The notes beneath the pieces were generated by a model, which saw only the letters and a program-made list of their open reading frames with translations, did not search any database and was not told the DNA's origin. From Pleodorina starrii (taxonomy: Eukaryota > Chlorophyta > Chlorophyceae > Chlamydomonadales > Volvocaceae), in NCBI GenBank assembly GCA_030267565.1, contig BRXU01000032.1:868001-932000 (forward strand): DNA of 64,000 nucleotides. The letters are read 5' to 3'. Position numbers and translations under genes: made by a program. Each line of letters opens with the position of its first letter. Within the stretch, counting starts at the first letter, position 1. Positions 2,620-63,700 of this stretch are shown here, piece after piece.

Positions 2620-5600
2620 ACTACGGCCCCTGACCCCCAACAGCAACACGGGGCCCATAGGCCTGCTCCTTGCCCCCAAACCGCTTGGCGAACCCTCCAC
2701 GGCTAGTTACGGTTAGCATTAAAAGACTTCCTTCATCGGACCACTCCACTAGCCCCCTAAGCTGTGGCCCACGGAAGGCCCGCCACGCACGTGGCAACAG
2801 CGTCAGCGTATCCTGCCACGAGCTGAACTCGCTCTGCCTGCTGCGGTGGCTTTCAAGGACAACTGCCCAGTCGTGAGCTCACCGCGGAAATGATGGCATT
2901 CCTAACGAAGAGGTTGGCGGATCCAAGCAAGAGGGCGGCATCGGATCCAAAGCGCAGCCGCAGGGCCCGCGGCGGGGGGACGCCTGAGCGCATCGTGAAC
3001 CCCTTCAGCCCCATTCATCCCGGCAGCAGCTCGGGGGCTTCTCCTGGCGCTACCGTGTTTGCATGCGGTCAGGGAAGCGCGGGGGGGAGGAGTGCAGCCG
3101 CCGGCGCCACAGCGGCCGCCGGCTGAGGACGAGGACGTGGTGGAGGTGGAGGTGGCGCCAGAACTGGGTTCTCGGTGGGGCTGCCACGCCTCGACGCCTG
3201 GCAGCAGCGCCCCAAACGTGGCCGCCCCCACCAGGACTCCACATATGGGGATGAGCAGTGGCGGTGGTATTGCATGTCAGTGATGTTTGGGGGCTGCGGG
3301 TTGGGCGACTGGAATATAGATACTGGTAGGGGAGGTGTTGGGGCAAACTGTCACAGAAAAGGCCATAAGTATGAGGTTGGGCTCGAACCGGGTACTCACG
3401 GTGACACATAGCGCCTAAGGCTCCCATGTGCGAGCGATGCACGACGGCCAATCGAGCATACCATGGCATGTCCGGGCAAGTTACAAGTTCCACTTCATGC
3501 GGCCGCTCCAAAGCGCCGGTGAGCAGAGGCAGAGGCACGGGCGGGGCTTCCACACCGCCGAGCGGTGTCCGTCGGCACTCGGCAGCGGCGGCACCGCCCT
3601 TGCCACTGCTGTTCATATAACGGTAGCTTGCAATGCATTGTGCCCTTCGTGCTGTTTACCGTACAAAAAAACATGAAGTTGAGTGATCGCGCCGTCATTG
3701 CTTCCGCGCCGCTGCGCTGTCACACGTAGCTGGGTCTGGTTGGTTGGGTTGGGTTGGATTTGGCTCAAGGTTTTGAAGAGTGGCGGTGTGTGTCCTGATG
3801 GCGCTTGTCCCTGTCGTTCTCTTCTTTCGTGTGTATGTATGTAAATAAATCAGGTCGCGGCCGCTCTGTGTTCGTGTTATGGCGCCCCCCTGGGACGCCA
3901 CTTTGCTGCCGGAGGGTGGTAAGTAAGGATGCGGTGCGACGTGCCGGGCCGGAACGAAGGCCGTGGGTACCGTAGCCGCATCCGGGCGAGCGTGCATGAG
4001 GGTGTGGCTGAAAGCAGGCGGAAGTGGGGAAGGAAGTGGGGAAACGCGTTGCAAGTTTGACCCGACGATGTCAGGAGTGGTCGTGGGTGCTGCAAGTGGA
4101 GTATACGGAGCGGGAGGGTCTGTAGGACTTGCATGTTGGGTGGTGTCGGTGGTAGCGGGCAACATAAGGGGCGTTGTCCCTCTGCCCGCTGCAAGTTGAT
4201 GCGGGGCATGGGCATGGGCATGCGCATGGGATTCACAGGGTGGTCATTCTTTTTTTGGGGTCCACTGCGAAACGTTTCATTCGGGGGAGGTGGCTTCCTT
4301 CCGTCCGTCTCTGAGGACTACGGTAGTGTGGGTCCGTGCCTTGGAGTGCGGCATGCACGGGGCCTTATGTATGTGGGGGCTCGCTGGGCACATGTCTTCC
4401 CTGGTTGCAGCCCGTGCGTGGGTTACTGTCAGCAGGCCCGCGAACGGGCATATCTAGTAGTGGGTCATCCGTCAGTAGTTTGCAGCAGTACGGTATGGGG
4501 AGCCGAGCCTAGAGGCCAACTCCCCCGTGGCTGCGGCTCACGGTCTGTCCCCGTGAGGCTCGCGCGTTCGTTCCTGACGGCGGGTAGATCGTGTTGTCTG
4601 ATCCGGGTGGAGGCCCCTGTGCCCGAAGAGCCTTTCGACAGAGCCAGGCAGGCTGTACCCCTCTCCTTCTCCGCTGCGGTATTTTCTTTTTACCCCTCTC
4701 GGGGGGCCTGGAGCCCACTGTAACAAATACTACTAGCTATGGGGTGGGGTCGTGACTAGACGCTCAAGTTTATCACCTTTTCATCACCGACGGTGGCGGC
4801 ATGAAGCGACGTTGGACAGCGCCTGCGGCGGGTGAGGCTGGCGGGGGGGGGGCCGGGGGGGGGGGAGGGCGGAACGCGGAAGTTCACGCGGACGTGAAGG
4901 TCCAGAACCAAACCGCTGACGAGAGGTGCCATTCCGAGAAGCCCGACGCCCGCGCACCTCTGACGGAGCGTCTCACAGCGTCACAGGCCGTCCCTGGCCC
5001 TTCTGCGTCGCTGAAAGCTCCGGTAAGCCCTTGGAAGCGTCCATGTCTAACGACCGGCCATCGGCCTGGTTATACTCCTTAGACAGCCCTCTCCGTCGCC
5101 TGTTTTAAACGGACCGCGACTGCCCCCGGGGTGTGTGTGTCAACGCAGCGTTTGCCGCGAAATAATTGTCATCAGCCCGCAGAACCATACCGCCTTGTAG
5201 AGGAAACTGCAAAGAGCTGTTGGCGATCTGGGGCCGACCTGTCGAGACTTTGGACAACCGCAGACTCGCACGCGGACAGGCAGGCAGGGTCATACCCAAC
5301 GCCGGGGGCCATCGCCCTTGAAGCTGCTCCACGTACCGGTAGGGGGTTCCGCCCTGCCTGCCTGCCTGCCTGCCGACTGACGTCTGCATAGGTTTCGTTG
5401 ACTCGGCCCCCGACCAGCTCCAATGAAGAGGTCTGGTCCGGTCTGGGCGGGGAACTGGAGATGGCGTCCACGCCTGCCCGGGTGGGCGAATGCAGCGAGG
5501 CGGGGGGGGAGGGCGGATGCAGCGCCGTGCGGCTTCAGTGGCACCGGGAGGGCCCCCACCCCCCAGTAGCAGCGACCCGGTGCCGCCGGACGTGTGCTGG

Positions 5601-31363: not shown

Positions 31364-34300
31364 ATGCTGCCCGTGCAATCCGCGCACCGCATCGGCGTCG
31401 CCCGCCACATCCGCAGGCTGTGCCTCCACCTCTCCAGTCACTCTGCGCTTTTTTCCCCTCCCCCCGTTTCCTCCTCTGCTCAGCTGGTGCTGGCGGCTGC
31501 TGCCTCCCGGCGCAAGGGCTACCAGGACCAGGACGCCAAGGACTCGCTGGACGTTGACAGCCTGGACGAGGGGGATGGCAAGCTCAGCAAGTACGCGGGT
31601 CTGCTCAGCAAGAAGAACGGAGCGGCGGCTGGAGCAGCGGTGACAGCAAACGGCAGCAGCCCACAGGTGGGGATGCGGCCAGAGTGCGGCCAGAGGAGAC
31701 GGGAAGGGGGCAGAGAGGATGGGTTTGAAGCTGTCAATGGATGACAGGCGCGGGGGCGCACGTCGGTGATCGGGCGGCGCTCGGGGGCAGCTGCCGAGAA
31801 GGAGGAGGCTGCCGCAGGCCACATACTGTACTCGGGCCCTTCCACGGCGCCCTGCCTGGCCAGGCATCGGACCGGCCGGTTCCTGCACCAGCCGCATGAC
31901 TTGTTAAATGCTTGTACCACTGGGTATCTGCGGCCAGGGGAGAAAGGGGTGTGCGTGTGAGGGCAGCTGGACCATGCGTGTGATGAGCGTCCACCCCAAC
32001 CCGACTCCCCAGGCCTCGTCGGCGGGCAAGACGAAGACATACACGCAGCAGGCTCCGCCACCTCCCTCCCGGGCTCCGGCGGTGTTCACCGATGACTTCG
32101 GCTTCGACGACACGTGGGGCACCACGCCCATGCCGCCCAGCCGAGACGGTGGTGGCTACGGTTCCGGCGGCGGCTACATGAATGGGGGCGGATACGGCGG
32201 CGGCGGCGGCTATGGCGGGTACGTCAATGGCGGCAGCGGTGGCGGCGGCGGGTACATGAACGATGCTGGGTACGGTGGCTACAGTGGAGGCGGCTACGGT
32301 GGCTACGGCGGGTACGGCACTAGCGGTGGATACATCAACACAGGGTACGGCGGATACGGCACCAGCAGCGGCCGGGGCCGCAACCGTGGCGGCTCCATGC
32401 GGTTGCATTACGACGACTACGATGACATGGACGAGACGGGTGAGTGCGAGCGGCGGGGAAGGTGGGGAGGGCGTTAGGGTTAATGGTCTGAGTGGTACTC
32501 GTTGCGGCAAATGCGGCGATAGTTCGAATGGGAGAGTGCTGCTCAGTGGGAACGAGGGCGGGTTGGCCGTGCAGAGTTGAAGCAGCAGGCGGTGCGTGTA
32601 GGGGGCCTGCCATCCTTCCTCTCCCGTTGAGGCTTGCATTTTCATGGTTGTTTAACACGCAATCCACTCTTCCCATACCCAACCCATGCGCCAACACCTC
32701 CACCAACCATCCGCACCCCAATTCCCCTGGATGTGTGGCCGCACCATCGCTTGCCATGGGCTGTAATTCGTCCATACCGCTGCTGCACCGCTGTGCCTCA
32801 CCTGCGGCTTCCGCTGCTGGCTGCTGCTGCTGCTGCTGCTGGCTACCGCTGCCGATTACTTGGGCCGTTGCCGTTTGACTGGCTGATGGGTTCGATGCAC
32901 TGTTTTTTTCCTGCGGCCCGCCCGCAGACGGCGAGATGCCTCGCGTCAAGGTGGACTCGTGTAATATCAACGGAAAGACGATACAGTGCAACCACGGGAT
33001 CACGTGAGTCAACCAACTAACCAACCAACTAACCACCAGTCGGTCGGTCGGTCGGCCGTGGGGGTTTGCCGCTGGCGTGGCGGCGGCGCGGGTGGGCGAC
33101 AGGGGTGGGGGGTTCACCGCGGATAGGCCGGAGCCCGCAGGGGCGGCGGAGCCGCGGACTAACAGGCGGGCAGGCGGGCGTCCGGTGGCTTGTTGCATTG
33201 AGGAGGAGGGAGGGGACGGATGAAGATGGAGGGGAGAGGGCATGGAGCGAAGCGCTAGGTGCATGGATGATCGCTCGCTCATTTCGTCATCTGATTGATA
33301 TATTAGGTTGATGGAGGACAGGAGGATCGGGGAAGGGCGGGTGGGTGGGGCAGCGGCTTGTCTCCCACGGCTGCTGGCGACATGGCCTTGCTCCTCCTGA
33401 CGCCCCAGCTGCCGCGCCACCTGGATTGGGGCATTCGTGTCCATTTCCCCACCTGCACGGCGGCCCTCGCTTCCCATGTCACCTTCCGGGCAGCCCTGGC
33501 CATGGCGCCATGGCACCCGCATGCGCCGCCCTCCCACGCGGCGGCTCGTGGTGATTCTGCTGCTGCTGCTGGTGCTGTTGCGGCTCTGCTCGCCCGTTGC
33601 CCGCACAGGGCCAAGGAGGTGTTTCTGCTGGGCGCTGGACCCGACCGGGCACCTCTGGGGCTCATGCCAACCAACCGCGCACAGGTGCGTCCATGCGCAC
33701 GTACGTACCTTGTGTGCATGCGCTCGAGTTGGGAAGGGTGCGTGTGCTCGTGGTGTGCCGATGGAGGTGCCGGGAGCCCAGGCGGTACCCGCGCGGTTAT
33801 GTCGTCATGTGTCCTTTCTGAAGCTAGGGGGGGGGGCTCGTCGGAAACGGCGGCTCGGTTTGCGCTGCTGGCCTGCCCTGGGAAAAGCCGCGCCGCTGGC
33901 GAATCAGCCCGCCCGCTACCGCGGCGAGCCAGGTGCTGCGGGAAAGCGTGTTAGTGTGTGTTGGGGGGGGGGGGAGGGGGGGGGCGGTAAGGAGAGAGTG
34001 CGCCATGCAGTCGCGACAAGAGCGCGTGTTGTGCTCACCGCCGTAGTGGGACATGCGCCATCGATCCCGGGCCCTTCCCTAGCCGCCGGTGTCGCCCTGA
34101 TTGCCCCCCACCCACCCACTCCCACCTTCCCGCCTCCTTCCGTCGTGCAGGCCATGGCTGACGAGGCCAAGGAGGACCTGCTGCTGATCAACCCGGACGC
34201 CTCCCCCCCGGTGGCTCGCATCATCGGCTGGTCCAAGTACAAGTACGAGCTGGAGAAGACTGCCAAGGAGAAAAAGGCCAAGAGCACCAAGTGAGGGGGG

Positions 34301-37266: not shown

Positions 37267-37740
37267 GTTGCCCCGGACAGACTTGCACACAGCGTGTAGT
37301 AGTCGGCTTGGGCCATAGTAGGGCCTAGGCCCTCCTAGCTTCTCACAAGTACGGCGGCTCCAGCTAAGGATTCCAGCAGCTGCCTCCACCGCCCATCACC
37401 TCAATACACCATTCATTCACCCCCGCACTGCCGCACAGCAATAAATAGCAACGCACGCGCGAAGTAAAACTCGTCGGTTCGAACATATGACAATGCCGAT
37501 GACTTCCTCGCAATATCCGGCAGAAGCCTCGGTTTTGCCCCGTGGTGGTGCGTGGTTTGCGTGGCACTGACCGGCGGCTTGCTGATCATGTTTAGTTATA
37601 TTTTGTACCGCATATATGTATGGGCCACACAGCAGCAGCTGGGCATCGCTCTCGCCCACGCACGCAAACTGGTGCAGGACCTCCGTCGCGTCGCGTCCGC
37701 CTCGCTTTGCAGCCTGCCGTGTTTCCGCCCAGCCCTGGTA
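37267..37740. repeat. Diverged left arm of the tandem array
   Basis: This stretch is related to 41671-42059 and 45990-46380. Shared landmarks in the same order include TTGCCCCGGACAGA, GGATTCCAGCAGCTGCCTCC, ATTCATTC, ACTTCCTCGC and GCCCCGTGGTGGTGCG. It differs at many positions and by indels, unlike the near-identity that starts at 37741. Confidence 0.7.
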
Positions 37741-38225
37741 GCGAGGTACCGACTGGGGGTCGTCGCTGGTGGTGCTGGCTCGTTTTCATGCATGATGACT
37801 GCCGCTCGCGCGACCGCGTACACGTACAGGCGTTTTGCAAGGAGGGGAGCGCGTGCCGTCCCTTTTCTAAGCCGTGCACGCGACAAAACACACACTCATT
37901 GCGCGCCGGGCAGGCGGGGCCTACGTACTGCACGCCGGTCGGTCGGCGAACTCGCAATTTGAATTAGTTGGGATTGCATGTTGCATCAAGGTCCAAACGT
38001 ACAATAGTACGTGGTTCGAGTCCTTTTCGCGAAACCCAACGGGTCAGTCACACCTCGCTCTCCCAGCCAGCCGCTTTTTGCCTGCCTGGCTTCCAAATGC
38101 CGCGTGCAGCAGTCCTTACATGGTGACGGTTTTAGAAAAATGGAAAGGAGCACGTCATGGCCCGCCCATGTGCGTAAGCCGTTCAGCTCATATTCCAGGG
38201 CCGCAAGCGCCTTATTCATCAATCC

Positions 38226-38232
38226 TATAAAA
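38226..38232 (+). promoter_or_regulatory. TATA box, array gene copy 1
   Basis: TATAAAA followed by GCCGCC, 136 bp before the start codon. It sits at exactly the same distance in all three copies. Confidence 0.75.
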
Positions 38233-38361
38233 GCCGCCTCGGACGCACAAAACTCTCTCCTATTCACCCAAACATACTCAAATACAAATTTGTTACTCTT
38301 CAAATTCAATTAATTGCCCTCCAAGGCCAGCAAGCTCTACGTGGTCAGTGAGACATTGCAA

Positions 38362-40089
38362 ATGGCTTCGCGTCCGGTCCTGACCCGCAAGCCTCAGCAG
38401 GCCCGCATAACTGCTGGAAAAGTCACAGTCTCGAAGGCTGTGGGATGTGCTTCTGCCGGCGCGAGAATGGCCGCTGTTGCTCCGCCGCGCGGCATCATGG
38501 TGAGCTAGCGCCTTTTGCGTTCGGCCAGGGAGCAGAAATTAAGCTCGATTTGATGCATCCAGTATTTCAGATTATAGAATAGCTGCGGGTTTTCGGTACT
38601 GAACCCAAGGTTGCGACTTCGGGTGCGCATTGCAGGCCGCTCAAGATCTTGGCAGCAACAGGCCACAGAGCAAGCTGGCAGCGCAACACCTTCCTTCGAG
38701 GCCTGCGTGGCAGGTGTGTGAAATTCTGGCAGACCCTTGATCGAAGTCCGTACGTGTTCGGTGTTCGGCCCGCTGGTGCCACCTGCTCTGTGCGTGTGCC
38801 CGCGTGCGCCCTGCCTGCTGCCCGCACCATGCATAAGGAACCGCTGTATTACGATGTACCCATATTTGCATTGGGATGTGGACCGCTGTTTGGTATGGGG
38901 CTAGGCTGACGGGGAGAAGCTTGCTTTGTTACATGTTGCATCGTGCGGTGGGTGCGCGTACCTACGTACCGGCTTGGCTGCCATCCACGCGTCTGCCATC
39001 GTACCTGCCAGTGCGCCCAGCGGGAACCGATAAGCAGCAGCATACGGTACCTCCCCTCTCACAAACCCCATCCATTTGCACCTCGAACCAGGAACCCTCG
39101 CTGTCTCCCACAACGATTGCCCACTCGCTTCCTGCTTACCCACCGTTTTCCTCCCCGTCTTCCCCGCCTGCCATCCGTGCACGCAGCTGTCGTACAAGCC
39201 GTCGGACCCCGTCGCCCTCAAGGCCGCCGAACCGCGCCGCGCCACCGCCCAGCTGGTGTCCGGCCTCACTCGTGGCAGCCCCACGCGAGGAGCTTCACCG
39301 CCCCTGCGAGTGCACAGCGGCATCCGCGTCTCACCCGGCGGGCTCGCGCGGCCCCGGCTGGCACAGCCGCAGCGGTACAGCGCCCTCGCTGCCTCGATCG
39401 ACATGACCGCTGCCGCCGCCGCCACCGCCGTTGCCACCGCCGCCATTCGATCCGCCGACGGCTCCACTGACGACTTCTCCGCCGTCCCCACCCCAGCGCA
39501 GCGGGCCAACACCCAGCTTCTCGCAAAGATCGCCGCCTGTGCCGAAGCCTCCGTGTCGCGCCTTACCTTCCCTTCCGCCGGCTCGTCGGGATCATCCCGC
39601 CGCGTGGTCACGCCCTCGCGCCCGGCCTCACCGCCGCCGTCACGCTTTGCGGCCCCCACGACTACCACCACCACCATCGCCGCCGCCGTCACCCTCGCCA
39701 CCATCCCCGCCCCCCCCACCACCCCCGCCGCCAGCGCTACGACCAGCGCCTGCGGCTCCACGGTGTCGACCTTCACCACCGCATCTGAGCGCGAGGCCGC
39801 CACCGCCACGTCCACCACCTCTTTTTCCCCCTCGGCCAGCACCGCCTCCTCCTCCGCCTCGTCCTTCACTCGCACCGCCTCCGACACCGCCAGCTCGTAC
39901 GACAGTGATGAGGACTACAAGAAGGAGGAGCAGGGGGAGGACGACCTGCCGCTGCTCGGCGTCTCGTTCATCGGGAACAGGGGCGTGTTCGTCGCCGCCG
40001 GGGAGGGCAGCGCTGCCCCTCTGCGGTGGTCCGGCATGGGGGCGGACAGGGCCGCTGAGGAAGACGGCGACAACAATGCCGCAGCATGA
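38362..40089 (+). CDS. Tandem array gene, copy 1; unrecognised 372-residue low-complexity protein
   Basis: Exons 38362-38499, 38636-38713, 39187-40089 (TGA), all in phase 0, with GTGAGC and GTGTGT donors and TGCAG/ACGCAG acceptors. I do not recognise the family. The N-terminal 72 residues are basic and rich in A, R, S and Q (MASRPVLTRKPQQARITAGK), which could be an organelle-targeting peptide or a disordered head. The middle (about 75-305) is Ala/Ser/Thr/Pro-rich, with a poly-Thr run and many possible phosphosites. The C-terminus turns acidic (SYDSDEDYKKEEQGEDD) and then has a compact hydrophobic block (LPLLGVSFIGNRGVFVA). A TGTAA at 40838-40842 fits its 3' end. Codons end mostly in C. Against copies 2 and 3 it has V for I, lacks an Ala-Pro pair, has one Thr fewer in the poly-Thr run and has R for Q near the end. 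Confidence 0.7.
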
Positions 40090-40837
40090 TGGGCTGCGGA
40101 GATGGGCTGCGTGCGTTTTGCGACAGCTCATCCGACCCGGTTGCGTCCCTTGTTACGGTCGTGCGTGGTGGCAGTCAGCAGCGTATGTTCGTGGAATGAT
40201 GAACTCTTGCCCGACTGGACAGGCAGCAGGGGAAGGGGGGGAGGGTGGGAGGGAGGGAGTGATGGGGCGCGTTCTTGCGTATGGAGCTAGCATTCAAGGT
40301 GTCACTTGCTTCGAAGTACGCTCCCTTTACATTTGTTGGCATGCATAGGTGGCGAATGCTTGGTCCGCAGGGCTGCTGTCGATCTAATCCACCTGGTATG
40401 ATAATCAGGTCTTTGTTGGAGACGCGACATGAAACACAGCGGCCGAAGGACTGATAGTAGAAGCCGCATGCCCTACCACCTGTTACTGCGTGTATTTTGC
40501 GGCGACGATCCCAGCATAGCATCAATACTGCGCGGTTTGTGCGAATGCGTGAGGCGGCAGTAGTGCCTGGCAAGGTATGTGGGGACCTTTGTGCGCGCGT
40601 TACAGCAGGCCGGCAGTTAAGGTTGGCCATGAGCAGCAGTAATGGCGCGCGGGTCGGCGCCTTTAGTCGAGCGTCGGCGGGTGAAGCGCGCCCCGGGCCG
40701 TTCTTATTGCCCCGGGTTTGGCGATGGATATCGGAATCCAGGAGTAATGGCGAGACGTGTACTTGTATGTGTGTGTATGTGTATGTGAATGTGAGCAGAC
40801 TCGCCGCTGATGTGACTGGCAGAGAGTGGTTTAAACA

Positions 40838-40842
40838 TGTAA
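40838..40842 (+). terminator. TGTAA poly(A) signal, array gene copy 1
   Basis: TGTAA in an AT-rich context, 749 bp after the stop, with an identical counterpart in unit 2. Confidence 0.6.
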
Positions 40843-42548
40843 TATATCTGACGTAAGGGTATGTGCGCAGCGGCCGATCGAAGGGCTGCTAATAACCGGC
40901 GCGCACAAGCCGCTTATTAGATAGTTGCCTGCGCTCTCAAACCCAACCTACCCCCGCCCCCCCCCATCAATCCGCCACACAACAGTTCGGATATGCGTGC
41001 GGCTTCGTTCATATCCATGTGTGTATGTCTGTAGATAGCCTGTAAGAGCAAGGTAGGCAAACAGGAAAGGCTCTACATATCCGTTCGAGGGTCTGGATGG
41101 AGCCCTTTGTGACCACGACACAAATGAAAGGCAAACGGCCGCGCGCGTGCACTGCTTGATGACCAGCGAGCTAAGCGGACATGGATGGGTTGCAAATAGA
41201 GCAGGGGGCGGGGCCATCCTAATCGGAGTCTGTCCCATGTGTCGTATCTTGCCGTACGTACCGGAACAAGTGTTGGCCATACGAGCCGGAGGGCCAATAA
41301 TGGCTAACAAATATCCCATTAAAAAACGACACTGACGACAACGCACGCACTGACTGGAGAGAGGGGAGGCACACGCGACGGACACGTAGAACACTTCGAG
41401 GCTGGGTTGCGCAGTTTGGAATACGTGTAAAAGTGCACGCGCCCCTTCCCCCGATGGATGGCTCCCGTCATACATCCGTCGTCTGCTGGTCCAGGAAGGC
41501 GTACGAGCTGATGAGCTAAAGCGGAACGCAAAGGGCGAGTTTGCGTTTGCAAGAAGGCGGAGTGAGAGCATCAATGTCATGCATATGAGCGATACGGCAG
41601 GCCTGTGCAGCAGTGGTCGGGGCGGGCCGGAACATGGGTTTCTGTTGCTTGGGCGGTTTACCTGCTAAGTTGCCCCGGACAGATTTGCAAGCGGCATTTA
41701 ATTAGGATAATACTCGGCTCCGGATTATTATCAGGGCCTGACTTCTATGAAATACGTACGGCGGCGGCGCCAAGTACGGATTCCAGCAGCTGCCTCCGGC
41801 CCTCATCACGCACCTACGTATCTAATTTCCTCATTCATTCAGCAATGACTATCAACGCGGGCGCGGAACAAAACTCGTAACGAATACATTATTAGGCCAA
41901 CGAATTACTTCCTCGCGGTTATCCGGCAGATCGCAGATGCCTCGTGCGTTTTCGCCCCGTGGTGGTGCGGCTCCCGTCTGGTTCGCTTTGCAGCCTGCCG
42001 TGTATCCGCCCAGCTCTGCCGCTGCTTCATCCGCATTCGCAACCTGCTGCAGGTTTGTAGCGAGGTACCGACTGCGTGGGGGTCGTCGCTGGTGGTGCTA
42101 GCTCGTTTTCATGCATGATGACTGCCGCTCGCGCGACCGCGTACACGTACAGGCGTTTTGCAAGGAGGGGAGCGCGTACCGTCCCTTTTCTAAGCCGTGC
42201 ACGCGACAAAACACACACTCATTGCGCGCCGGGCAGGCGGGGCCTACGTACTGCACGCCGGTCGGTCGGCGAACTCGCAATTTGAATTAGTTGGGATTGC
42301 ATGTTGCATCAAGGTCCAAACGTACAATAGTACGTGGTTCGAGTCCTTTTCGCGAAACCCAATGGGTCAGTCACACCTCGCTCTCCCAGCCAGCCGCTTT
42401 TTGCCTGCCTGGCTTCCAAATGCCGCGTGCAGCAGTCCTTACATGGTGACGGTTTTAGAAAAATGGAAAGGAGCACGTCATGGCCCGCCCATGTGCGTAA
42501 GCCGTTCAGCTCATATTCCAGGGCCGCAAGCGCCTTATTCATCAATCC

Positions 42549-42555
42549 TATAAAA
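42549..42555 (+). promoter_or_regulatory. TATA box, array gene copy 2
   Basis: TATAAAA at 136 bp before the start codon, in the same context as in copies 1 and 3. Confidence 0.75.
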
Positions 42556-42684
42556 GCCGCCTCGGACGCACAAAACTCTCTCCTATTCACCCAAACATAC
42601 TCAAATACAAATTTGTTACTCTTCAAATTCAATTAATTGCCCTCCAAGGCCAGCAAGCTCTACGTGGTCAGTGAGACATTGCAA

Positions 42685-44414
42685 ATGGCTTCGCGTCCGG
42701 TCCTGACCCGCAAGCCTCAGCAGGCCCGCATAACTGCTGGAAAAGTCACAGTCTCGAAGGCTGTGGGATGTGCTTCTGCCGGCGCGAGAATGGCCGCTGT
42801 TGCTCCGCGCGGCATCATGGTGAGCTAGCGCCTCTTGCGTTCGGCCAGGGAGCAGAAATTAAGCTTGATTTGATGCATCCAGTATTTCAGATTATAGAAT
42901 AGCTGCGATTTTTGGGTACTGAACCCAAGGTTGCGACTTCGGGTGCGCATTGCAGGCCGCTCAAGATCTTGGCAGCAACAGGCCACAGAGCAAGCCGGCA
43001 GCGCAACACCTTCCTTCGAGGCCTGCGTGGCAGGTGTGTGAAATTCCGGCAGACCCTTGATCGAAGTCCGTACGTGTTTGGTGTTCGGCCCGCTGGTGCC
43101 ACCTGCTCTGTGTGCCCGCGTGCGCCCTGCCTGCTGCCCGCACAATCCATAAGGAACCGATGTATTACGATGTACCCATATTTGCATTGGGATGTGGACC
43201 GCTGTTTGGTATGGGGCTAGGCTGACGGGGAGAAGCTTGCTTTGTTACATGTTGCATCGTGCGGTGGGTGCGCGTACCTACGTACCGGCTTGGCTGCCAT
43301 CCACGCGTCTGCCATCGTACCTGCCAGTGCGCCCAGCGGGAACCGATAAGCAGCAGCATACGGTACCTCCCCTCTCACAAACCCCATCCATTTGCACCTC
43401 GAACCAGGAACCCTCGCTGTCTCCCACAACGATTGCCCACTCGCTTCCTGCTTACCCACCGTTTTCCTCCCCGTCTTCCCCGCCTGCCATCCGTGCACGC
43501 AGCTGTCGTACAAGCCGTCGGACCCCGTCGCCCTCAAGGCCGCCGAACCGCGCCGCGCCACCGCCCAGCTGGTGTCCGGCCTCACTCGTGGCAGCCCCAC
43601 GCGAGGAGCTTCACCGCCCCTGCGAGTGCACAGCGGCATCCGCGTCTCACCCGGCGGGCTCGCGCGGCCCCGGCTGGCACAGCCGCAGCGGTACAGCGCC
43701 CTCGCTGCCTCGATCGACATGACCGCTGCCGCCGCCGCCACCGCCGTTGCCACCGCCGCCATTCGATCCGCCGACGGCTCCACTGACGACTTCTCCGCCG
43801 TCCCCACCCCAGCGCAGCGGGCCAACACCCAGCTTCTCGCAAAGATCGCCGCCTGTGCCGAAGCCTCCGTGTCGCGCCTTACCTTCCCTTCCGCCGGCTC
43901 GTCGGGATCATCCCGCCGCGTGGTCACGCCCTCGCGCCCGGCCTCACCGCCGCCGTCACGCTTTGCGGCCCCCACGACTACCACCACCACCACCATCGCC
44001 GCCGCCATCACCCTCGCCACCATCCCCGCCCCCGCCCCCGCCACCACCCCCGCCGCCAGCGCTACGACCAGCGCCTGCGGCTCCACGGTATCGACCTTCA
44101 CCACCGCATCTGAGCGCGAGGCCGCCACCGCCACGTCCACCACCTCTTTTTCCCCCTCGGCCAGCACCGCCTCCTCCTCCGCCTCGTCCTTCACTCGCAC
44201 CGCCTCCGACACCGCCAGCTCGTACGACAGTGATGAGGACTACAAGAAGGAGGAGCAGGGGGAGGACGACCTGCCGCTGCTCGGCGTCTCGTTCATCGGG
44301 AACAGGGGCGTGTTCGTCGCCGCCGGGGAGGGCAGCGCTGCCCCTCTGCAGTGGTCCGGCATGGGCGCGGACAGGGCCGCTGAGGAAGACGGCGACAACA
44401 ATGCCGCAGCATGA
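42685..44414 (+). CDS. Tandem array gene, copy 2; 374 residues
   Basis: Exons 42685-42819, 42956-43033, 43503-44414. It has the same structure as copy 1 and is intact. Exon 1 has lost one Pro codon (AVAPRG instead of AVAPPRG). Exon 3 carries the longer APAPATT form, seven Thr in a row and Q in place of R in the C-terminal AAPLQWSGMG. The C-terminal block from the acidic run onward is otherwise unchanged, which suggests that part is under constraint. The TATA box and TGTAA are retained, so the copy looks expressible. Function unknown. Confidence 0.7.
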
Positions 44415-45162
44415 TGGGCTGCGGAGATGGGCTGCGTGCGTTTTGCGACAGCTCATCCGACCCGGTTGCGTCCCTTGTTACGGTCGTGCGTGGTGGCAGT
44501 CAGCAGCGTATGTTCGTGGAATGATGAACTCTTGCCCGACTGGACAGGCAGCAGGGGAAGGGGGGGAGGGTGGGAGGGAGGGAGTGATGGGGCGCGTTCT
44601 TGCGTATGGAGCTAGCATTCAAGGTGTCACTTGCTTCGAAGTACGCTCCCTTTACGTTTGTTGGCATGCATAGGTGGCGAATGCTTGGTCCGCAGGGCTG
44701 CTGTCGATCTAATCCACCTGGTATGATAATCAGGTCTTTGTTGGAGACGCGACATGAAACACAGCGGCCGAAGGACTGATAGTAGAAGCCGCATGCCCTA
44801 CCACCTGTTACTGCGTGTATTTTGCGGCGACGATCCCAGCATAGCATCAATACTGCGCGGTTTGTGCGAATGCGTGAGGCGGCAGTAGTGCCTGGCAAGG
44901 TATGTAGGGACCTTTGTGCGCGCGTTACAGCAGGCCGGCAGTTAAGGTTGGCCATGAGCAGCAGTAATGGCGCGCGGGTCGGCGCCTTTAGTCGAGCGTC
45001 GGCGGGTGAAGCGCGCCCCGGGCCGTTCTTATTGCCCCGGGTTTGGCGATGGATATCGGAATCCAGGAGTAATGACGAGACGTGTACTTGTATGTGTGTG
45101 TATGTGTATGTGAATGTGAGCAGACTCGCCGCTGATGTGACTGGCAGAGAGTGGTTTAAACA

Positions 45163-45167
45163 TGTAA
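45163..45167 (+). terminator. TGTAA poly(A) signal, array gene copy 2
   Basis: Same position and context as the motif of copy 1, 748 bp after the stop. Confidence 0.6.
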
Positions 45168-46869
45168 TATATCTGACGTAAGGGTATGTGCGCAGCGGCC
45201 GATCGAAGGGCTGCTAATAACCGGCGCGCACAAGCCGCTTATTAGATAGTTGCCTGCGCTCTCAAACCCAACCTACCCCCGCCCCCCCCCATCAATCCGC
45301 CACACAACAGTTCGGATATGCGTGCGGCTTCGTTCATATCCATGTGTGTATGTCTGTAGATAGCCTGTAAGAGCAAGGTAGGCAAACAGGAAAGGCTCTA
45401 CATATCCGTTCGAGGGTCTGGATGGAGCCCTTTGTGACCACGACACAAATGAAAGGCAAACGGCCGCGCGCGTGCACTGCTTGATGACCAGCGAGCTAAG
45501 CGGACATGGATGGGTTGCAAATAGAGCAGGGGGCGGGGCCATCCTAATCGGAGTCTGTCCCATGTGTCGTATCTTGCCGTACGTACCGGAACAAGTGTTG
45601 GCCATACGAGCCGGAGGGCCAATAATGGCTAACAAATATCCCATTAAAAAACGACACTGACGACAACGCACGCACTGACTGGAGAGAGGGGAGGCACACG
45701 CGACGGACACGTAGAACACTTCGAGGCTGGGTTGCGCAGTTTGGAATACGTGTAAAAGTGCACGCGCCCCTTCCCCCGATGGATGGCTCCCGTCATCCGT
45801 CGTCTGCTGGTCCAGGAAGGCGTACGAGCTGATGAGCTAAAGCGGAACGCAAAGGGCGAGTTTGCGTTTGCAAGAAGGCGGAGTGAGAGCATCAATGTCA
45901 TGCATATGAGCGATACGGCAGGCCTGTGCAGCAGTGGTCGGGGCGGGCCGGAACATGGGTTTCTGTTGCTTGGGCGGTTTACCTGCTAAGTTGCCCCGGA
46001 CAGATTTGCAAGCGGCATTTAATTAGGATAATACTCGGCTCCGGATTATTATCAGGGCCTGACTTCTATGAAATACGTACGGCGGCGGCGCCAAGTACGG
46101 ATTCCAGCAGCTGCCTCCGGCCCTCATCACGCACCTACGTATCTAATTTCCTCATTCATTCAGCAATGACTATCAACGCGGGCGCGGAACAAAACTCGTA
46201 ACGAATACATTATTAGGCCAACGAATTACTTCCTCGCGGTTATCCGGCAGATCGCAGATGCCTCGTGCGTTTTCGCCCCGTGGTGGTGCGGCTCCCGTCT
46301 GGTTCGCTTTGCAGCCTGCCGTGTATCCGCCCAGCTCTGCCGCTGCTTCATCCGCATTCGCAACCTGCTGCAGGTTTGTAGCGAGGTACCGACTGCGTGG
46401 GGGTCGTCGCTGGTGGTGCTAGCTCGTTTTCATGCATGATGACTGCCGCTCGCGCGACCGCGTACACGTACAGGCGTTTTGCAAGGAGGGGAGCGCGTAC
46501 CGTCCCTTTTCTAAGCCGTGCACGCGACAAAACACACACTCATTGCGCGCCGGGCAGGCGGGGCCTACGTACTGCACGCCGGTCGGTCGGCGAACTCGCA
46601 ATTTGAATTAGTTGGGATTGCATGTTGCATCAAGGTCCAAACGTACAATAGTACGTGGTTCGAGTCCTTTTCGCGAAACCCAATGGGTCAGTCACACCTC
46701 GCTCTCCCAGCCAGCCGCTTTTTGCCTGCCTGGCTTCCAAATGCCGCGTGCAGCAGTCCTTACATGGTGACGGTTTTAGAAAAATGGAAAGGAGCACGTC
46801 ATGGCCCGCCCATGTGCGTAAGCCGTTCAGCTCATATTCCAGGGCCGCAAGCGCCTTATTCATCAATCC

Positions 46870-46876
46870 TATAAAA
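46870..46876 (+). promoter_or_regulatory. TATA box, array gene copy 3
   Basis: TATAAAA at 136 bp before the start codon. Confidence 0.75.
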
Positions 46877-47005
46877 GCCGCCTCGGACGCACAAAACTCT
46901 CTCCTATTCACCCAAACATACTCAAATACAAATTTGTTACTCTTCAAATTCAATTAATTGCCCTCCAAGGCCAGCAAGCTCTACGTGGTCAGTGAGACAT
47001 TGCAA

Positions 47006-48746
47006 ATGGCTTCGCGTCCGGTCCTGACCCGCAAGCCTCAGCAGGCCCGCATAACTGCTGGAAAAGTCACAGTCTCGAAGGCTGTGGGATGTGCTTCTGC
47101 CGGCGCGAGGATGGCCGCTGTTGCTCCGCCGCGCGGCATCATGGTGAGCTAGCGCCTTTTGCGTTCGGCCAGGGAGCAGAAATTAAGCTCGATTTGATGC
47201 ATCCAGTATTTCAGATTATATAATAGCTGCGGGTTTTCGGTACTGAACCCAAGGTTGCGACTTCGGGTGCGCATTGCAGGCCGCTCAAGATCTTGGCAGC
47301 AACAGGCCACAGAGCAAGCTGGCAGCGCAACACCTTCCTTCGAGGCCTGCGTGGCAGGTGTGTAAAATTCTGGCAGACCCTTGTTCGAAGTCCGTACGTG
47401 TTCGGTGTTCGGCCCGCTGGTGCCACCTGCTCTGTGCGTGTGCCCGCGTGCGCCCTGCCTGCTGCCCGCACCATGCATTAGGAACCGCTGTATTACGATA
47501 TACCCATATTTGCATTGGGATGTGGACCGCTGTTTGGTATGGGGCTAGGCTGACGGGGAGAAGCTTGCTTTGTTACATGTTGCATCGTGCGGTGGGTGCG
47601 CGTACCTACGTACCGGCTTGGCTGCCATCCATGCGTCTACCATCGTACCTGCCAGTGCGCCCAGCGGGAACCGATAAGCAGCAGCATACGGTACCTCCCC
47701 TCTCACAAACCCCATCCATTTGCACCTCGAACCAGGAACCCTCGCTGTCTCACACAACGATTGCCCACTCGCTTCCATCCTGCTGACCCGCCGTTTTCCT
47801 CCCCGCCCTCCCCGCCTGCCATCCACGCGCGCAGCTGTCGTTCAAGCCGTCGGACCCCGTCGCCCTCAAGGCCGCCGAACCGCGCCGCGCCACCGCCCAG
47901 CTGGTGTCCGGCCTCACTCGTGGCAGCCCCACGCGAGGAGCTTCACCGCCCCTGCGAGTGCACAGCGGCATCCGCGTCTCACCCGGCGGGCTCGCGCGGC
48001 CCCGGCTGGCACAGCCGCAGCGGTACAGCGCCCTCGCTGCCTCGATCGACATGACCGCTGCCGCCGCCGCCACCGCCGTTGCCACCGCCGCCATTCGATC
48101 CGCCGACGGCTCCACTGACGACTTTTCCGCCGTCCCCACCCCAGCGCAGCGGGCCAACACCCAGCTTCTCGCAAAGATCGCCGCCTGTGCCGAAGCCTCC
48201 GTGTCGCGCCTTACCTTCCCTTCCGCCGGCTCGTCGGGATCATCCCGCCGCGTGGTCACGCCCTCGCGCCCGGCCTCACCGCCGCCGTCACGCTTTGCGG
48301 CCCCCACGACTACCACCACCACCACCATCGCCGCCGCCATCACCCTCGCCACCATCCCCGCCCCCGCCCCCGCCACCACCCCCGCCGCCAGCGCTACGAC
48401 CAGCGCCTGCGGCTCCACGGTATCGACCTTCACCACCGCATCTGAGCGCGAGGCCGCCACCGCCACGTCCACCACCTCTTTTTCCCCCTCGGCCAGCACC
48501 GCCTCCTCCTCCGCCTCGTCCTTCACTCGCACCGCCTCCGACACCGCCAGCTCGTACGACAGTGATGAGGACTACAAGAAGGAGGAGCAGGGGGAGGACG
48601 ACCTGCCGCTGCTCGGCGTCTCGTTCATCGGGAACAGGGGCGTGTTCGTCGCCGCCGGGGAGGGCAGCGCTGCCCCTCTGCAGTGGTCCGGCATGGGCGC
48701 GGACAGGGCCGCTGAGGAAGACGGCGACAACAATGCCGCAGCATGA
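47006..48746 (+). CDS. Tandem array gene, copy 3; 375 residues
   Basis: Exons 47006-47143, 47280-47357, 47835-48746. Intact. Exon 1 has the two-Pro form of copy 1, while exon 3 has the longer APAPATT form and the Q variant of copy 2, so it is a patchwork. Private changes include LSFKPSD for LSYKPSD at the start of exon 3 and a rearranged end of intron 2 (about 47760-47834). Because the unit is truncated, its transcript must use a different 3' end; the first TGTAA downstream is at 49461-49465. Function unknown. Confidence 0.7.
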
Positions 48747-49130
48747 TGGGCTGCGGAGATGGGCTGTGTGCGTTTTGCGACAGCTCATCCGACCCGGTTG
48801 CGTCCCTTGTTACGGTCGTGCGTGGTGGCAGTCAGCAGCGTATGTTCGTGGAATGATGAACTCTTGCCCGACTGGACAGGCAGCAGGGGAAGGGGGGGAG
48901 GGTGGGAGGGAGGGAGTGATGGGGCGCGTTCTTGCGTATGGAGCTAGCATTCAAGGTGTCACTTGCTTCGAAGTACGCTCCCTTTACGTTTGTTGGCATG
49001 CATAGGTGGCGAATGCTTGGTCCGCAGGGCTGCTGTCGATCTAATCCACCTGGTATGATAATCAGGTCTTTGTTGGAGACGCGACATGAAACACAGCGGC
49101 CGAAGGACTGATAGTAGAAGCCGCATGCCC

Positions 49131-57066: not shown

Positions 57067-57667
57067 ATGGACGAAAACAACGTGCATCACTTTTGGGGAA
57101 TCAGCCCGGCGTTGGACCTCGGAAGCCTGTTACCGGCGGGTGGCGACGATGCAGCCGCGGTTCTACCCGTGGATCAGCCCATCCGCATGCTACAGGTGCG
57201 TGACATAAGTCTAGCCTTAGGTATCTGCAATTGCGCCCAAGCATAGCGACCTTGCCGCCCTGGCGCTTGGTCGACCAAAGCCCTTGCTCACCGAGACTAG
57301 TAATATGCGTCGACGCGCATACGCCCTGAAGTGCGGCCTTCCCTCACTAACCTTCCGCCCTCCAACTATCCCTCTTTCCTTCCCTTCGCGTCTGAAGAAC
57401 CTTGCCGAACCTTACCGACCCAATTTCGCTGCGTGCCCGTGCAGGTGGCACCGTACGACGCCCGCCACACGCTGACAACCATCTGCCGTGTGACACGCCA
57501 CCCGCTGCTGCTGCAGCAGAAGCAGCCGGTGGGTGTGGTACGTATGCTAATTGTTCAAGAGGCGCTGGGATCGGGAGAGTCGGATTTTCGCGGTGGAAGG
57601 AGCGCAGCCCTGATCAGCTCGCTCCGTTTGCATGCGCGCCTACCTGCCCGTCTGCCTACCTGCCCGT

Positions 57668-57702
<35 letters not shown>

Positions 57703-60700
57703 CCGGTTTCCCCTCTGCTCCGCTCCACCCCGCAGGTGCATCTGGTCGTGTGGGAGGACTCCCCCGAGGGTCTTGCCCGGCACATGCTGCTGCTGGCAGT
57801 GCTGCTGGACGGGGGGTTGCTGCCCCGGGAGAGAGGGGAGCTGCTGCTGGAGCTGCACGGCAACGTGGTGATGAGGGAGAGGGCGGCGACGTACCTGGGT
57901 AGGGGGGGTTGGGAGGGGGGGCGGTGGGGGCTGGGGCTGTGTGGGGGAAGGCGCTGGGGAGGAGCAGTTGTTGGAGGGCGTTGGGGGAGGGGCGATGGCA
58001 GGGGTGCGGCGCCCGCCCTGCCAACCTCGAGGGGAGGGGAGGGGGGGGGCGATGTGGGTTGTTTGGTTTGGGGTTGTATGGTAGGAGCAAGGTTTTGTAT
58101 TTCGGGGGGAGGGTGGCTGCATTGGGGAAAAGTTGCCGGCCCGAGCTCACGTGTGCCCCTGCCTGCCTGCCGGCACCAGCCACTGCCACGCCTCGTAACC
58201 CACCCTCACCAGTTGAGGTACCGTATTGCAACATGCCCCCCTCCACGGAGCTCCCTCCCCTCAGCTCCCTTCCCTCCACCGTTGGCGTCTTTTCAAAAGT
58301 GCGCCGTCGTTTGAGCAACCCATCTCCCCATCATTCTCCCCATCGTTCGCGCCCCTGCCCCTGCTTCTGCCCCCGCCCTGACCCGCCCTTCCGCAGACGA
58401 GAAGGCCCGGCAGCTGGAGGCGCTGGTGGTGGAGCTGTCGGGAGGGGGCGCCAGGGGAGGGTGTGGGAGGGGAGGGGGGGCGGCAGGCGGTGCCGGGGGC
58501 GAGGCGGCGGCGGCGGCGGCGGATGGCGACCACCGGGGCCTGGCGGCTCTGGGTCGCATGTTGGATCTGTCACTACTCAAATTCCAGGTGGGTGGGTGGG
58601 TGGGTGGGTGGGTGGGTTTGGTGTTTCGTTGGCCTTTGGGCCCCCGACTCGTATGGCAAGTTGTTTAGGTATGGGGTTACGCACGCACTCCCAAGCCATG
58701 TAACACACACGCGGGTTGACGGGGTGTGTGGTTACTGCCAAGGGAAAGGGCGATATGTGTGGTTGTAGAATCGAGGCTGAGGTGCGGCAATGGATGCGTC
58801 GAGGAGGGTTTTGGAAAGCTTGCGATCCGCGAGGGGATGTTTGGGTGTTTCGGGCGTGTGGATGTAAGGCCTAGCGTCTACGGAGTGGTATCTGCTGCTC
58901 TGCACACAAGCTGGTGGGCCCTATCCTTGCTACACGCAGGTTGGCCCTGTTCTCAGACCGGGATGTACCCACCCACTTTCGGTGTCGGGGTCGGGGATGC
59001 CGGCATGCAATGGGATGAGGTGTCGAGGAGGCAACCAAAGGGCTTTGGATCAGTGCCGTACCACCACCACCTCCCCTACCGCACCCCCCCCTCGCGTCCC
59101 TTCCCTCCGGCACCCCACAGGAGAAGGACCAGCTGGTGGAGGCCCTACAGAAGTGGCGTACGACAGTGGCGTACGACATGGTGAAGGCCTGGGACGCCCG
59201 CGCGCGCAAGTGGTACGGCGACCGGTACGACTTTCGCCGCAACATGGTGGACTGGGATTACCACATGCGGCTGCAGGTGGGCGATGAGGCTGGGTCGGCC
59301 TGATTTAGGTGTGGCGAGGTGTGCGGCCATTCGCGGTGCCACACAGCGATACAGCGCAGATACGCTCCCACCCCCCCCCCCGCAATCTCGAGAGTGTGTT
59401 GGCGCCACCAGTTGAATCACTTCCTTCCACATGGACGGAGTGGGTGACGAGGGACAGGATTCGGAAATGTTGGATTGCACTGCATTGCTAATGTGTCGGA
59501 TTCCGGGTTTTAGGGGCTTCGTGGAGACGGGCTGTGTCTTTCATGGCCCTTACCTGCCATGTGCCTACCCAGACCTCTTAACAGGACACGTGCCCCCGAA
59601 CATTTTCCTCACCGGCATTCATCGCGACAGCACGCACTCGCGCGCCATCTCCCCCCCTCCGACGCATATCACTCCTTGACCCCCTCCGTCGTCTCCGTCC
59701 CGTCGCTGTGCTTTCATCCTTGTGTCCCTCCCCGCCCCCCACCTCTTCTCCCCAGGCCGCTGGCACCCCCGGCCAGGACTCGGCTCACGGCTCCATCATC
59801 CACTTCCACCATTTCCGCCACTGGCGCATGCACGGCGTGGCGCACGAGTTGCGCGATTCGCACTATAATCAACCCAACCGCTCGTTGCTCAGTACGGCTT
59901 ACGGCAGGACGAGGGTGAGTCAGCAGTCGTCGGCAGAACTGGAGAGCGGGCCGGGCACAGGGTGTATCAGTTGCTGATACCGGTATGCCGCTCAGGGGCG
60001 AGCCACTGGGAAATGGAACCTGATACAGATGATAGGTTATCTGTTATCCTCCGAAAAGGCGAGGTTCGCTCCCTGATACACTGTAACGCAGGTCCTGCCT
60101 GCCTGCATATGGAACAGTCGCCCGTGGAAAAAATTGTTTCGACCGAGCAAGGGGTCGAACCTTGGACCTGAGCCTTAGGAAAGCTCCGCTCTATCCACTG
60201 AGCTACACGGCCACGTGCAAAGTTAGGATAAAAATTACATATGTGCCGCCTTTAATCGTCGTGTCTTGTGTGGTTCGGCATCGCCGCACTCCTTGTGCTC
60301 CCCGTTTCCCCTCAGCTCCCCTCCCTCCATCGGCGTGCGGTTTCGATTGTTGACGACGTTGATATGATCCCATTGTCAAACTTGTCTGCATATGCCTCTA
60401 ATGGAATTTTGGTGTCAGGGACGTTATGGTTGTTATTTATTACAGTGGGTTGCAGTCCCTCTGAACGGTCATTTGGACTTGATACTTGAACGACTGCAAC
60501 GATATACAAATATCCTTAGTCTCTATCCACCCCCCTACACGTAATTTATGTCACCTTGTGTAGTTTTGTGTAGGTGTTTAGGGTTTATATATAGGCTTTT
60601 CAAGGCCTTTAATAAGGGTAAGAATTCGCTGGGACGCCTCGAAGCTGACTTTCAATCCGACCTCGGTTTCGCCCACATGTGAACACATGTGAACCCTAAT

Positions 60701-63700
60701 GACACAAATCAGAATTCGTGTTCGCATGTCTTATTGCCTTACAGTAGGGTTTGATCTTAATCCAAAGACAGTCGTGTTTGTAGTTTTATTTGAACGACAT
60801 GCTCAAACTGGCGCGGGCAAAGTCAAGGGTACGGCACGGGTTTTAAAGGCTCAGGCTCTCAAGGCACCGACAATGGCTCTAGGGGAGTGCGTTTGTGGCC
60901 AGTTGGCCATCCTGCCAGATGCTTTACGGAGTTCCTGATTTCCCGAACCCGTCTTCGGGCCTGCCAGAAGGTAGAGACTGAAGGGTTTAGTTACGAAATA
61001 TATATCAATCATGTTTTCTAAAGTGGGCATCACATGCTTCCCGGATCTCGGGAGAGCGCCTGTGCCGGAGTGGTCTAACGGGTGGGTCTCAAGCTTTGAG
61101 AATGAGCTTTCCCATAGCGAAAGCTGCGTGAGTTCGAACCTCACCGGGCGCACTGCTCATGTTTTGTCGTGGCATCACCATGTGTCGTCATCATATTTCA
61201 TCTATGCTACGCGCTTTGCCGAGTCCGTTCATGCATTTCGCTCTTTGCATTTCGCTCTTTGGCTTCCACATGCATGCTGGCCCGTCCCAACCCCCACTCC
61301 ACATCCCCAGGAGTTCAAGGACCGCAACATGCGCGACGTGGGCCGTTCCGTGAGCGCGTGGGGCTTCTGGGCCGACATCCAGAACGGCCCCTACCACTGC
61401 TTCGGCACGCTGACGGAGGAGTCGTCATTTTACAAGGTCACAAACAAGCAGTACGCCCGTACGGCAGTGGACGTGGCGGAGCACAACGTGACGGTGGGGT
61501 TGGGTATTGGGGGAGGGATGGGGGGGAGGGCTATTGGGGGACGCACATGGGAGTCAGTGACGACGATGGCCTAGACGAGTGCGCGAGGGCTGTTCCCAGG
61601 CGGCGAGGCAGGATGAGATGGGAGGGGCGGTAGAGTGGGATTTAGTTGACGGAAGATTTGCTAGGCTGGGTGTGGCTATTCGTGGTGGGGGAAGGTGGTT
61701 GAGTGTGAGGTGCCGCTCGCCTGGCGCTAAGGAAGGGACTGGCCGCTGACCTGCAACTGTTCGACTTCAGTAATCCCTTCTCCCCCATCCGCCCGCCCCG
61801 TCCTTACGCCCCCGTCAACTCAACTCCTCCCTCCACCACCACTCAACCCCTCCCCCAACCACCACGTCTCCACCCCACCCTCCCCCTTCAGGCTCTCCTC
61901 CACGAGCTGCGCACGGGTCAGCGGCTGACCCTGGCTGCGGGGAGTGAGCCCCCCCGCGCCCAAGTGGCCCGAGGCCCAACCTCCCTGGAGGACCTGCAGC
62001 AGCAGCAGCAGCAGCAGCAGCAGGGGGAGGGGAAGGGCGACGGGGAGGGGGAGCGGAAGGGGCAACAGGGGCAGGGCGAAGGCGGCGCGAGCGGGCAGGA
62101 TGACGCCGCACCGGCCGCGGCGTCCGATCAAGCATCCACTGGCTCACCCACACCGGCCGCCGTGGCCACTACCGCGGCACCAGAGCCGCAAGGAAAAAGT
62201 GGCGAATCGGGCAACTCCGGGCCGCCGCCGCCACCGCCTCCCCCACCGCCGGCCCCTGCACCCTCGCCACCGCCGCCGCCACCGCCGCCCGAAGCTGGAC
62301 AGCGGGAGCCGCCCTCCGGTCTGGCGCCCGAGCTGCCGCCGGATGAGGTCCCCCGGTACACCTCGGGAGGGAGGGCCGCGGTCGCCAAGGCCGTCGCAGC
62401 GGCGGCTGCACCCCCGCCATCATCGGCGGGGGCACCCTCGGGAGGAGGGGCAGGGGCAGGGTGCGGAAGTGGCGAGGCGGGCGGCGCGGCGCCGGCCCAG
62501 GCAGATGCGAGGGCGGAGGTGCAGGGTGCCGCTGCTGCAGCCGGGGAAGTCGGTGGCAGCGGAGACGGCGGCAGGGGGCCTGGTGCCGGCACCGCTGATG
62601 CCGCCACCCCGGCCGTCAAGCAGCAGGTGTGTCCTTGGAGCCAGAGTTCGTCTGGGTGGGGGGATGGGGGGTTACCGTACACCTCTTGAGGAGGTGGGCC
62701 TCTGCTGTACCGTTGCGCATGGCCATTACGGTTGTGTTCGCGGATAACCGCGTCCCCGCTGCGTTCAGCGTGGCCGCGGCTTCACCACCTGCCCGCTCAC
62801 TCACCCCCCCCGGCCTTTCTCGCAGCACAGCGCCCGACGTTCGCGCGGCGCTCTCTCCCTCCGCAGCTGCCCCGCACTGCCCCTTTGCCCCGTTACCCTC
62901 TCCCCTTCGTCCCTACGGGTTGCTGCAACCAGATGCAATGAGCAAATGACGCAATTCACGCTGAAGTCCCTCCCCTCCCCATCAGCCATCATCCCCCCCC
63001 CGCTGTGTGTATGTGTCAGATGGCGGCTGAGGAGGCGGCGCTGCGAGCTGCCGAGGCGGCTGCCGACGCTGCGGGCCGCTGCCGCGCCTCGTCGCTGTTC
63101 CAGTTGCAGCTGTTGACCGGGGACCTGGCCAAGGGAGTCACGGGTGGGTGGGGGCTGGTGGCTGGGGGGGAAGGCGGGTGCTCGGCGTGGAGCGGGAAGG
63201 TGTGGCGCGTGTGTCGGCAGTCCAGTCCAACTGAAACTGACTGGAGTGGGGACTGGACTGGGGATATGCTTAGCATGCACGAGACAAGCGCTGGCTGGGC
63301 CCCAACCTCCCCATCCCAATGAACCTACCGCAACACCCTCTCGCCTCTCCCCAAAACACACAAGCACACACGTACTCGTCCCATTCCCCTTCCACAAATT
63401 CCACAATCCCCGCTTGCGTCCTCAGGCCGCGCCAAATACACCGGTGCATTTTCCGTACTGACCCTGGGTCACCGTCACATCCACATGCTGGCCCCCGAGT
63501 ACGGCCTCCACGCGGCGGCGGCTCCAGGGGCGGTTCTGGTGGCGGAGAACGCCAGGTGCGGTGCGGTGTGGTGCGACGGATTGGGGGTTGGGAAAGGGCA
63601 GGGGGGCGGGGGTCCGTGATCCGCAGTAGCACTGGGGGCCGCGAGGCGGGAACGGCGCTGATTGGGTTGTTGAGCGGTGGTTATGGGGGCGATCATCTGG

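Follow-up and report, generated by a model that had tools for sequence, protein, structure and literature searches.

A tandem gene triplet in Pleodorina starrii is part of a larger, dispersed family with mosaic copies

Introduction

Ordinary recent tandem duplicates under concerted evolution combine head-to-tail units, mosaic copies and retained promoters. Here we describe an array of three near-identical genes that is like them in all three features. It is located in a 64,000-nucleotide stretch of the green alga Pleodorina starrii (contig BRXU01000032.1, here C32, forward-strand positions 868001-932000). This whole stretch is referred to as the window, and positions are counted from its first letter unless another contig or locus is named. 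The array represents an ordinary class of young tandem gene family, and only the undescribed protein that it encodes sets it apart from such duplicates.

In the same species, seven paralogs of GCS1/HAP2 form a tandem, autosomal cluster, which its authors date to P. starrii or a recent ancestor (PMC10256686, here and below cited from part of its text). The two cases are alike in species and in the tandem arrangement of paralogs. However, the GCS1/HAP2 copies have kept a known domain and diversified their exon-intron structures (PMC10256686), while the copies described here share one exon plan, contain no known domain, and are both mosaic and dispersed.

We estimate a probability of about 75% that the array forms the most recent tandem portion of a family of protein-coding genes, so far found only in P. 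starrii, for which we infer exchange, dispersal, gene conversion and the nature of the product. The same gene plan recurs at a minimum of nine loci; the TATA core is conserved, the reading frame is under selection, and copies are mosaic.

Results

Self-BLAST of the window revealed two full units head to tail and an incomplete third at 37738-49130, with 98-99% identity. Positions 37738-44798 match 42057-49130 at 98.8% identity over 7085 columns, and positions 37738-40473 match 46378-49130 at 98.4%. This likeness is far above chance (BLAST E printed as 0.0). The tandem triplication with spacings of 4319 and 4321 bp, proposed in an initial annotation of the window, is thus confirmed, with the qualification that the third unit lacks the final ~1.6 kb of the repeat. 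A diverged remnant of the unit tail lies 5' of the first unit, and the array therefore grew beside an older copy. The units and the remnant are as follows.

37738..42056, + strand: unit A1 (4319 bp), from self-BLAST
42057..46377, + strand: unit A2 (4321 bp), from self-BLAST
46378..49130, + strand: unit A3, shortened on its 3' side, from self-BLAST
37352..37737, + strand: diverged remnant (67-87%) of the unit tail, in two pieces, 5' of A1

Each unit contains a three-exon gene preceded by a TATAAAA box (3/3 units) that lies, as had been claimed, 136 bp before the ATG (start codons at 38362 in A1, 42685 in A2 and 47006 in A3). Exon sizes are 135-138, 78 and 903-912 bp, the stop codon lying within the last exon. 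The coding sequences of A1, A2 and A3 are all open, with a single terminal stop, GT donors and AG acceptors, and correspond to proteins of 372, 374 and 375 residues, in agreement with the intact frames of the initial annotation. The 300 bp 5' of the ATG are identical in the three units. The introns, earlier called near-identical, are so only roughly, as they differ in patches: 5/136 sites of intron 1 differ between A2 and A1, and 14/473 sites of intron 2 between A3 and A1.

38226..38232, + strand: TATAAAA of A1
38362..38499, + strand: A1 exon 1
38636..38713, + strand: A1 exon 2
39187..40089, + strand: A1 exon 3 including the stop codon
42549..42555, + strand: TATAAAA of A2
42685..42819, + strand: A2 exon 1
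42956..43033, + strand: A2 exon 2
43503..44414, + strand: A2 exon 3 including the stop codon
46870..46876, + strand: TATAAAA of A3
47006..47143, + strand: A3 exon 1
47280..47357, + strand: A3 exon 2
47835..48746, + strand: A3 exon 3 including the stop codon

We searched the P. starrii assembly (136,057,477 bases, 95 contigs; the window is C32:868001-932000) at the DNA and protein levels and found the family gene at a minimum of nine loci on contigs C32, C24 and C53, some of them inverted; all counts of family loci are lower bounds. Six of these loci lie beyond A1-A3 and were invisible to the initial annotation. What had been taken for a lone triplication is the youngest part of a family present in both orientations, which is larger and more mobile than can be seen from the window. 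The copies outside the triplet are listed below.

C32, 862 kb, - strand: copy B1
C32, 852 kb (~52 kb from the triplet), - strand: copy B2
C32, 1083 kb, - strand: copy C
C32, 680 kb, + strand: copy F
C24, - strand: copy D
C53, + strand: copy E

The exon plan is common to the copies aligned. Relative to A1, 1.3-2.8% of sites differ in B1 and 0-6.5% in C and D (segments up to 40473; beyond this point, alignment of the C and D tails is poor). Divergence from A1 is 5-41% by segment for F and 18-55% per 100-bp window from 37850 to 40450 for E, one window (8%) excepted. Around the TATA box, 7/9 family copies share an identical block of 38 bp; among them is B2, whose promoter block is unchanged relative to A1. 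The block carries four changes in E and five in F.

The homology of A3 stops at position 49130 (40473 in A1 coordinates) and that of F at L037 ~5948 (40470), which is nearly the same point of the repeat. No match was found between the two in the DNA beyond. A distant locus, C5:606010-606177 (L048), shares only the core motif QYSYKPANPVALNAAQPRRTTTQLVSYLTR with the family; a TATA-like box lies upstream of it, and its exon plan is perhaps similar.

Dispersal over three contigs in both orientations would also be expected if the units were part of a mobile element or a virus carrying the gene. However, the introns and the 5' flank were copied as well, and the A1 and F proteins have no Pfam match. 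Inverted self-matches are absent around C, D and E and span just 26-29 bp around B1 and F. Among 149 viral stretches matched by patterns, which were taken from the C-terminal part only, none was confirmed as a relative. An element-borne or viral origin is extremely unlikely.

A2 and A3 are mosaics, and the distribution of differences between copies suggests gene conversion. Eight of the 11 private substitutions of A2 are common to B1, four of them to B1 alone. All eight fall within 257 bp (38588-38844), and such clustering occurred in 0/2,000,000 random draws; A2 also shares a 4-bp gap with B1, C and D. In A3, 10/19 private substitutions are located at 38988-39181, and all ten recur in C and/or D; A3 also has an insert of 4 bp in common with C. 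Compared with A1, copy F shows 2-8% divergence in seven windows at 39750-40449 versus 15-47% in 18 of the 20 preceding windows. We also applied a run-length permutation test (2000 shuffles) to 699 variable sites free of gaps, a test on which the diverged copy F has the dominant influence. No shuffle had runs as long (0/2000) for A2-A3, B2-C, B2-D and each A copy paired with F. Our case for mosaics is built on the lists of shared sites and gaps rather than on this test. As in a tandem family under concerted evolution, near-identical open units stand head to tail and copies are mosaic. Since mosaics are typical of gene conversion, the likeness of the copies may understate their age. Synonymous divergence (dS) among the A copies is 0.006-0.019, which fits the very recent expansion proposed in the initial annotation, but the near-identity may in part reflect gene conversion rather than youth.

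The matching public proteins are hypothetical proteins of P. starrii with PLESTB, PLESTM or PLESTF tags. A further alternative is that the triplication was created in the merging of two assemblies and the filling of gaps. The bisexual assembly was indeed merged by quickmerge and gap-filled (PMC10256686). However, each unit carries its own patches, A3 ends in different DNA, and long reads, high-fidelity PacBio, were used (PMC10256686). In addition, the A1-type protein P0006 carries a male-strain locus tag and is encoded on a contig of 691,620 bases. We regard an assembly artefact as most improbable.

Comparison of the copies indicates that the reading frame is under selection. Among A1-A3, B1, C and D, the lengths of exonic gaps are multiples of three in 17/17 distinct cases versus 9/29 in the promoter, introns and 3' flank; with F added, the counts are 29/29 versus 20/64 in noncoding sequence, though gap events were taken from pairwise comparisons and are not fully independent. 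The ratio of nonsynonymous to synonymous divergence (dN/dS) is below 1 in 21/21 pairs (range 0.26-0.80; 0.26-0.39 inside the triplet), and the variable sites of six copies number 25, 21 and 43 at codon positions 1, 2 and 3. A1 differs from B1, C, D or F at 4-6 of 67 codons in the core block, and from F at 28/70 codons in exons 1-2. Support for a protein-coding gene is good for exon 3 and weaker for exons 1-2. Both strands of this stretch contain further long open frames, as they would if the open frames were a by-product of GC-rich DNA and the real product were a noncoding RNA. However, the frame-keeping gap lengths, the dN/dS values and the distribution over codon positions all argue against a noncoding product, which is very unlikely.

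The initial annotation did not recognise the protein family, and neither did Pfam-A, which gave no family for the two proteins scanned (A1 and F) at E up to 1. A PDB sequence search returned only two matches, both to TFIID subunit 9 (E 0.065 and 0.086), in the low-complexity Ser/Thr/Ala-rich stretch 185-317. In protein searches we found, provisionally, no relative outside P. starrii among the 7992, 471 and 7996 candidates scored (0.55-1.75x query length; the sets of 7992 and 7996 were those sharing most words with the query). The six protein clusters matched among the candidates scored are all named as P. starrii. The family is unmentioned in the part of the P. starrii genome paper drawn on here (PMC10256686), and no paper on PLESTB-tagged genes was found in the literature.

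The predicted proteins have a conserved core (SYKPxDPVALxxAxPRR..QLxSGLTRGSPTR), a Ser/Thr/Ala-rich middle that includes several SP/TP sites, and an acidic C-terminus. The seven copies open under the exon plan have their first acidic residue at position 49 or 50 and 5-8 Lys/Arg in the first 45 residues, and each protein contains 6-8 SP/TP sites. The basic N-terminus hints at a presequence-like (organelle) or a nucleic-acid-binding tail. AlphaFold, run with five sequences, returned a mean predicted local distance difference test score (pLDDT) of 41.5, a predicted template modelling score (pTM) of 0.17 and two low-confidence helices. Given the shallow alignment, this is weak evidence that the protein may be disordered. 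Capture of cyclin B, suggested by the N-terminus, was considered and rejected: a cyclin would have a cyclin box, and Pfam matched nothing in A1 and F. When the genome was searched with exons 1-2, 18 of the 20 matches fell within the family and the other two were weak (C18, E 0.53; C9, E 2.33); 0/20 coincide with the 16 Cyclin_N matches, the 5' exons of cyclins being unread.

Several observations weigh against a constrained, protein-coding family shaped by conversion. Because dN/dS is 0.64-0.80 in pairs with F (maximum 0.80, for D-F) and A1 and F differ at 52, 34 and 49 sites at codon positions 1, 2 and 3, with no third-position excess, we judge constraint to be modest. On average, exons have diverged about as much as introns (for A1-D, 0.053 in exon 3 and 0.054 in intron 2). 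Outside the triplet, two copies have changed splice donors, with TT at intron 2 of D and AT at intron 1 of F in place of the GT of the other copies, and B2 is broken. E shifts the reading frame once, in or beside a C run (L036 ~4018-4098), and is flanked there by family-like protein in two different frames; this change may be a base-calling error or a young lesion. Public protein models also depart from ours, as none of the six (P0001-P0006) begins at the modelled ATG. P0001, P0002 and P0006 begin at Met36 and omit exon 2, P0004 begins at the same Met36 and retains exon 2, P0003 begins within intron 2, and P0005 begins elsewhere. The public P. starrii annotation drew on genome-wide RNA-seq reads (PMC10256686). 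Because no public model seen starts at the modelled ATG, exons 1-2 as modelled may not correspond to the main mRNA. As for the mosaics, one private site (38676) inside the A2 patch is not common to B1, and the permutation test does not bear out an A2-B1 tract (1768/2000 shuffles as long). Finally, it is composition alone that weakly suggests a largely disordered, phospho-regulated scaffold as the product.

In copy B2, part of exon 3 is repeated in inverted orientation behind the sense copy (L032:3750-4640, which is C32 ~851.7-852.6 kb, outside the window). The two arms, each of roughly 330-400 bp, form a near-perfect hairpin. The transcript strand folds at -874.4 kcal/mol versus a shuffle mean of -473.8 (standard deviation 8; 0/20 shuffles as good). 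The arms compared (370 and 331 bases) differ at 7/318 aligned sites and by five gaps; per site, they differ from each other slightly less than either arm does from the five compared paralogs. The rearrangement is not private to one assembly, since P0004, a protein with a male tag, continues through the inverted arm. The antisense arm contains 394 distinct 21-mers. Perfect complements of 86-89 of them occur in each of A1, A2 and A3, of 128 in C, of seven in E and of none in the rest of the window.

Elsewhere in the window, 20 chosen other open frames were scanned with Pfam, and three reach the cut-off.

33401-34291, + strand: exon with the IF3 N-terminal domain
57304-58311, + strand: DUF4470
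60975-61571, + strand: DUF4471

The last two perhaps belong to one gene (57304-61571), and DUF4470 and DUF4471 together presumably mark a dynein-arm assembly factor (DNAAF3/PF22). A minisatellite-like array is located at 2023-2500. The published genome of the bisexual strain NIES-4479 comprises 95 contigs and 136.1 Mbp, with the sex-determining region on bisexual contig_12 (PMC10256686).

Discussion

We suggest that unequal exchange between repeats duplicated, head to tail, a segment with the gene and its promoter, and that other copies were relocated near and far on C32, C24 and C53. Ectopic gene conversion would have homogenised patches between copies up to ~170 kb apart and in opposite orientation, with donors and direction that we infer. 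The extra copies most likely come from recurrent exchange and have been tolerated, or mildly favoured for output. A stronger proposal is that the expansion was selected for dosage, with more full-promoter copies giving more of a needed product. It would account for a promoter and a frame kept in each triplet copy and for the low dN/dS in the triplet (0.26-0.39). However, the broken B2 and E and the changed splice donors of D and F have the look of loosely held copies. A dN/dS below 1 reflects constraint on the protein among the copies that were compared; it does not say that three copies are better than one. We consider selection for dosage unlikely.

Conversion of a gene duplication into a silencing locus is a proposed route to new small-RNA genes. 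Copy B2 might be a newborn hairpin gene under the family promoter, whose double-stranded RNA would be cut into small RNAs that pair with the other copies, so that a rise in dosage would come with its own brake. We regard this as decidedly unlikely; B2 is more likely a simple broken copy. In related algae, small interfering RNA (siRNA) precursors are found in coding exons of Chlamydomonas reinhardtii mRNAs (three genes listed in the part of PMC4817775 drawn on here), and phased siRNAs are reported for Volvox carteri (PMC5093975, likewise cited from part of its text). The C. reinhardtii precursors in coding exons resemble the long exon-3 fold of B2, but B2 lies outside the window and may be just a broken copy.

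Overall, the array and its dispersed relatives, read as a young protein-coding family, offer a clear case of an apparently species-restricted family caught in tandem growth, patchwise exchange and dispersal. If B2 makes small RNAs, it would show how a duplication may give rise, in the same step, to a locus that silences the duplicated gene.

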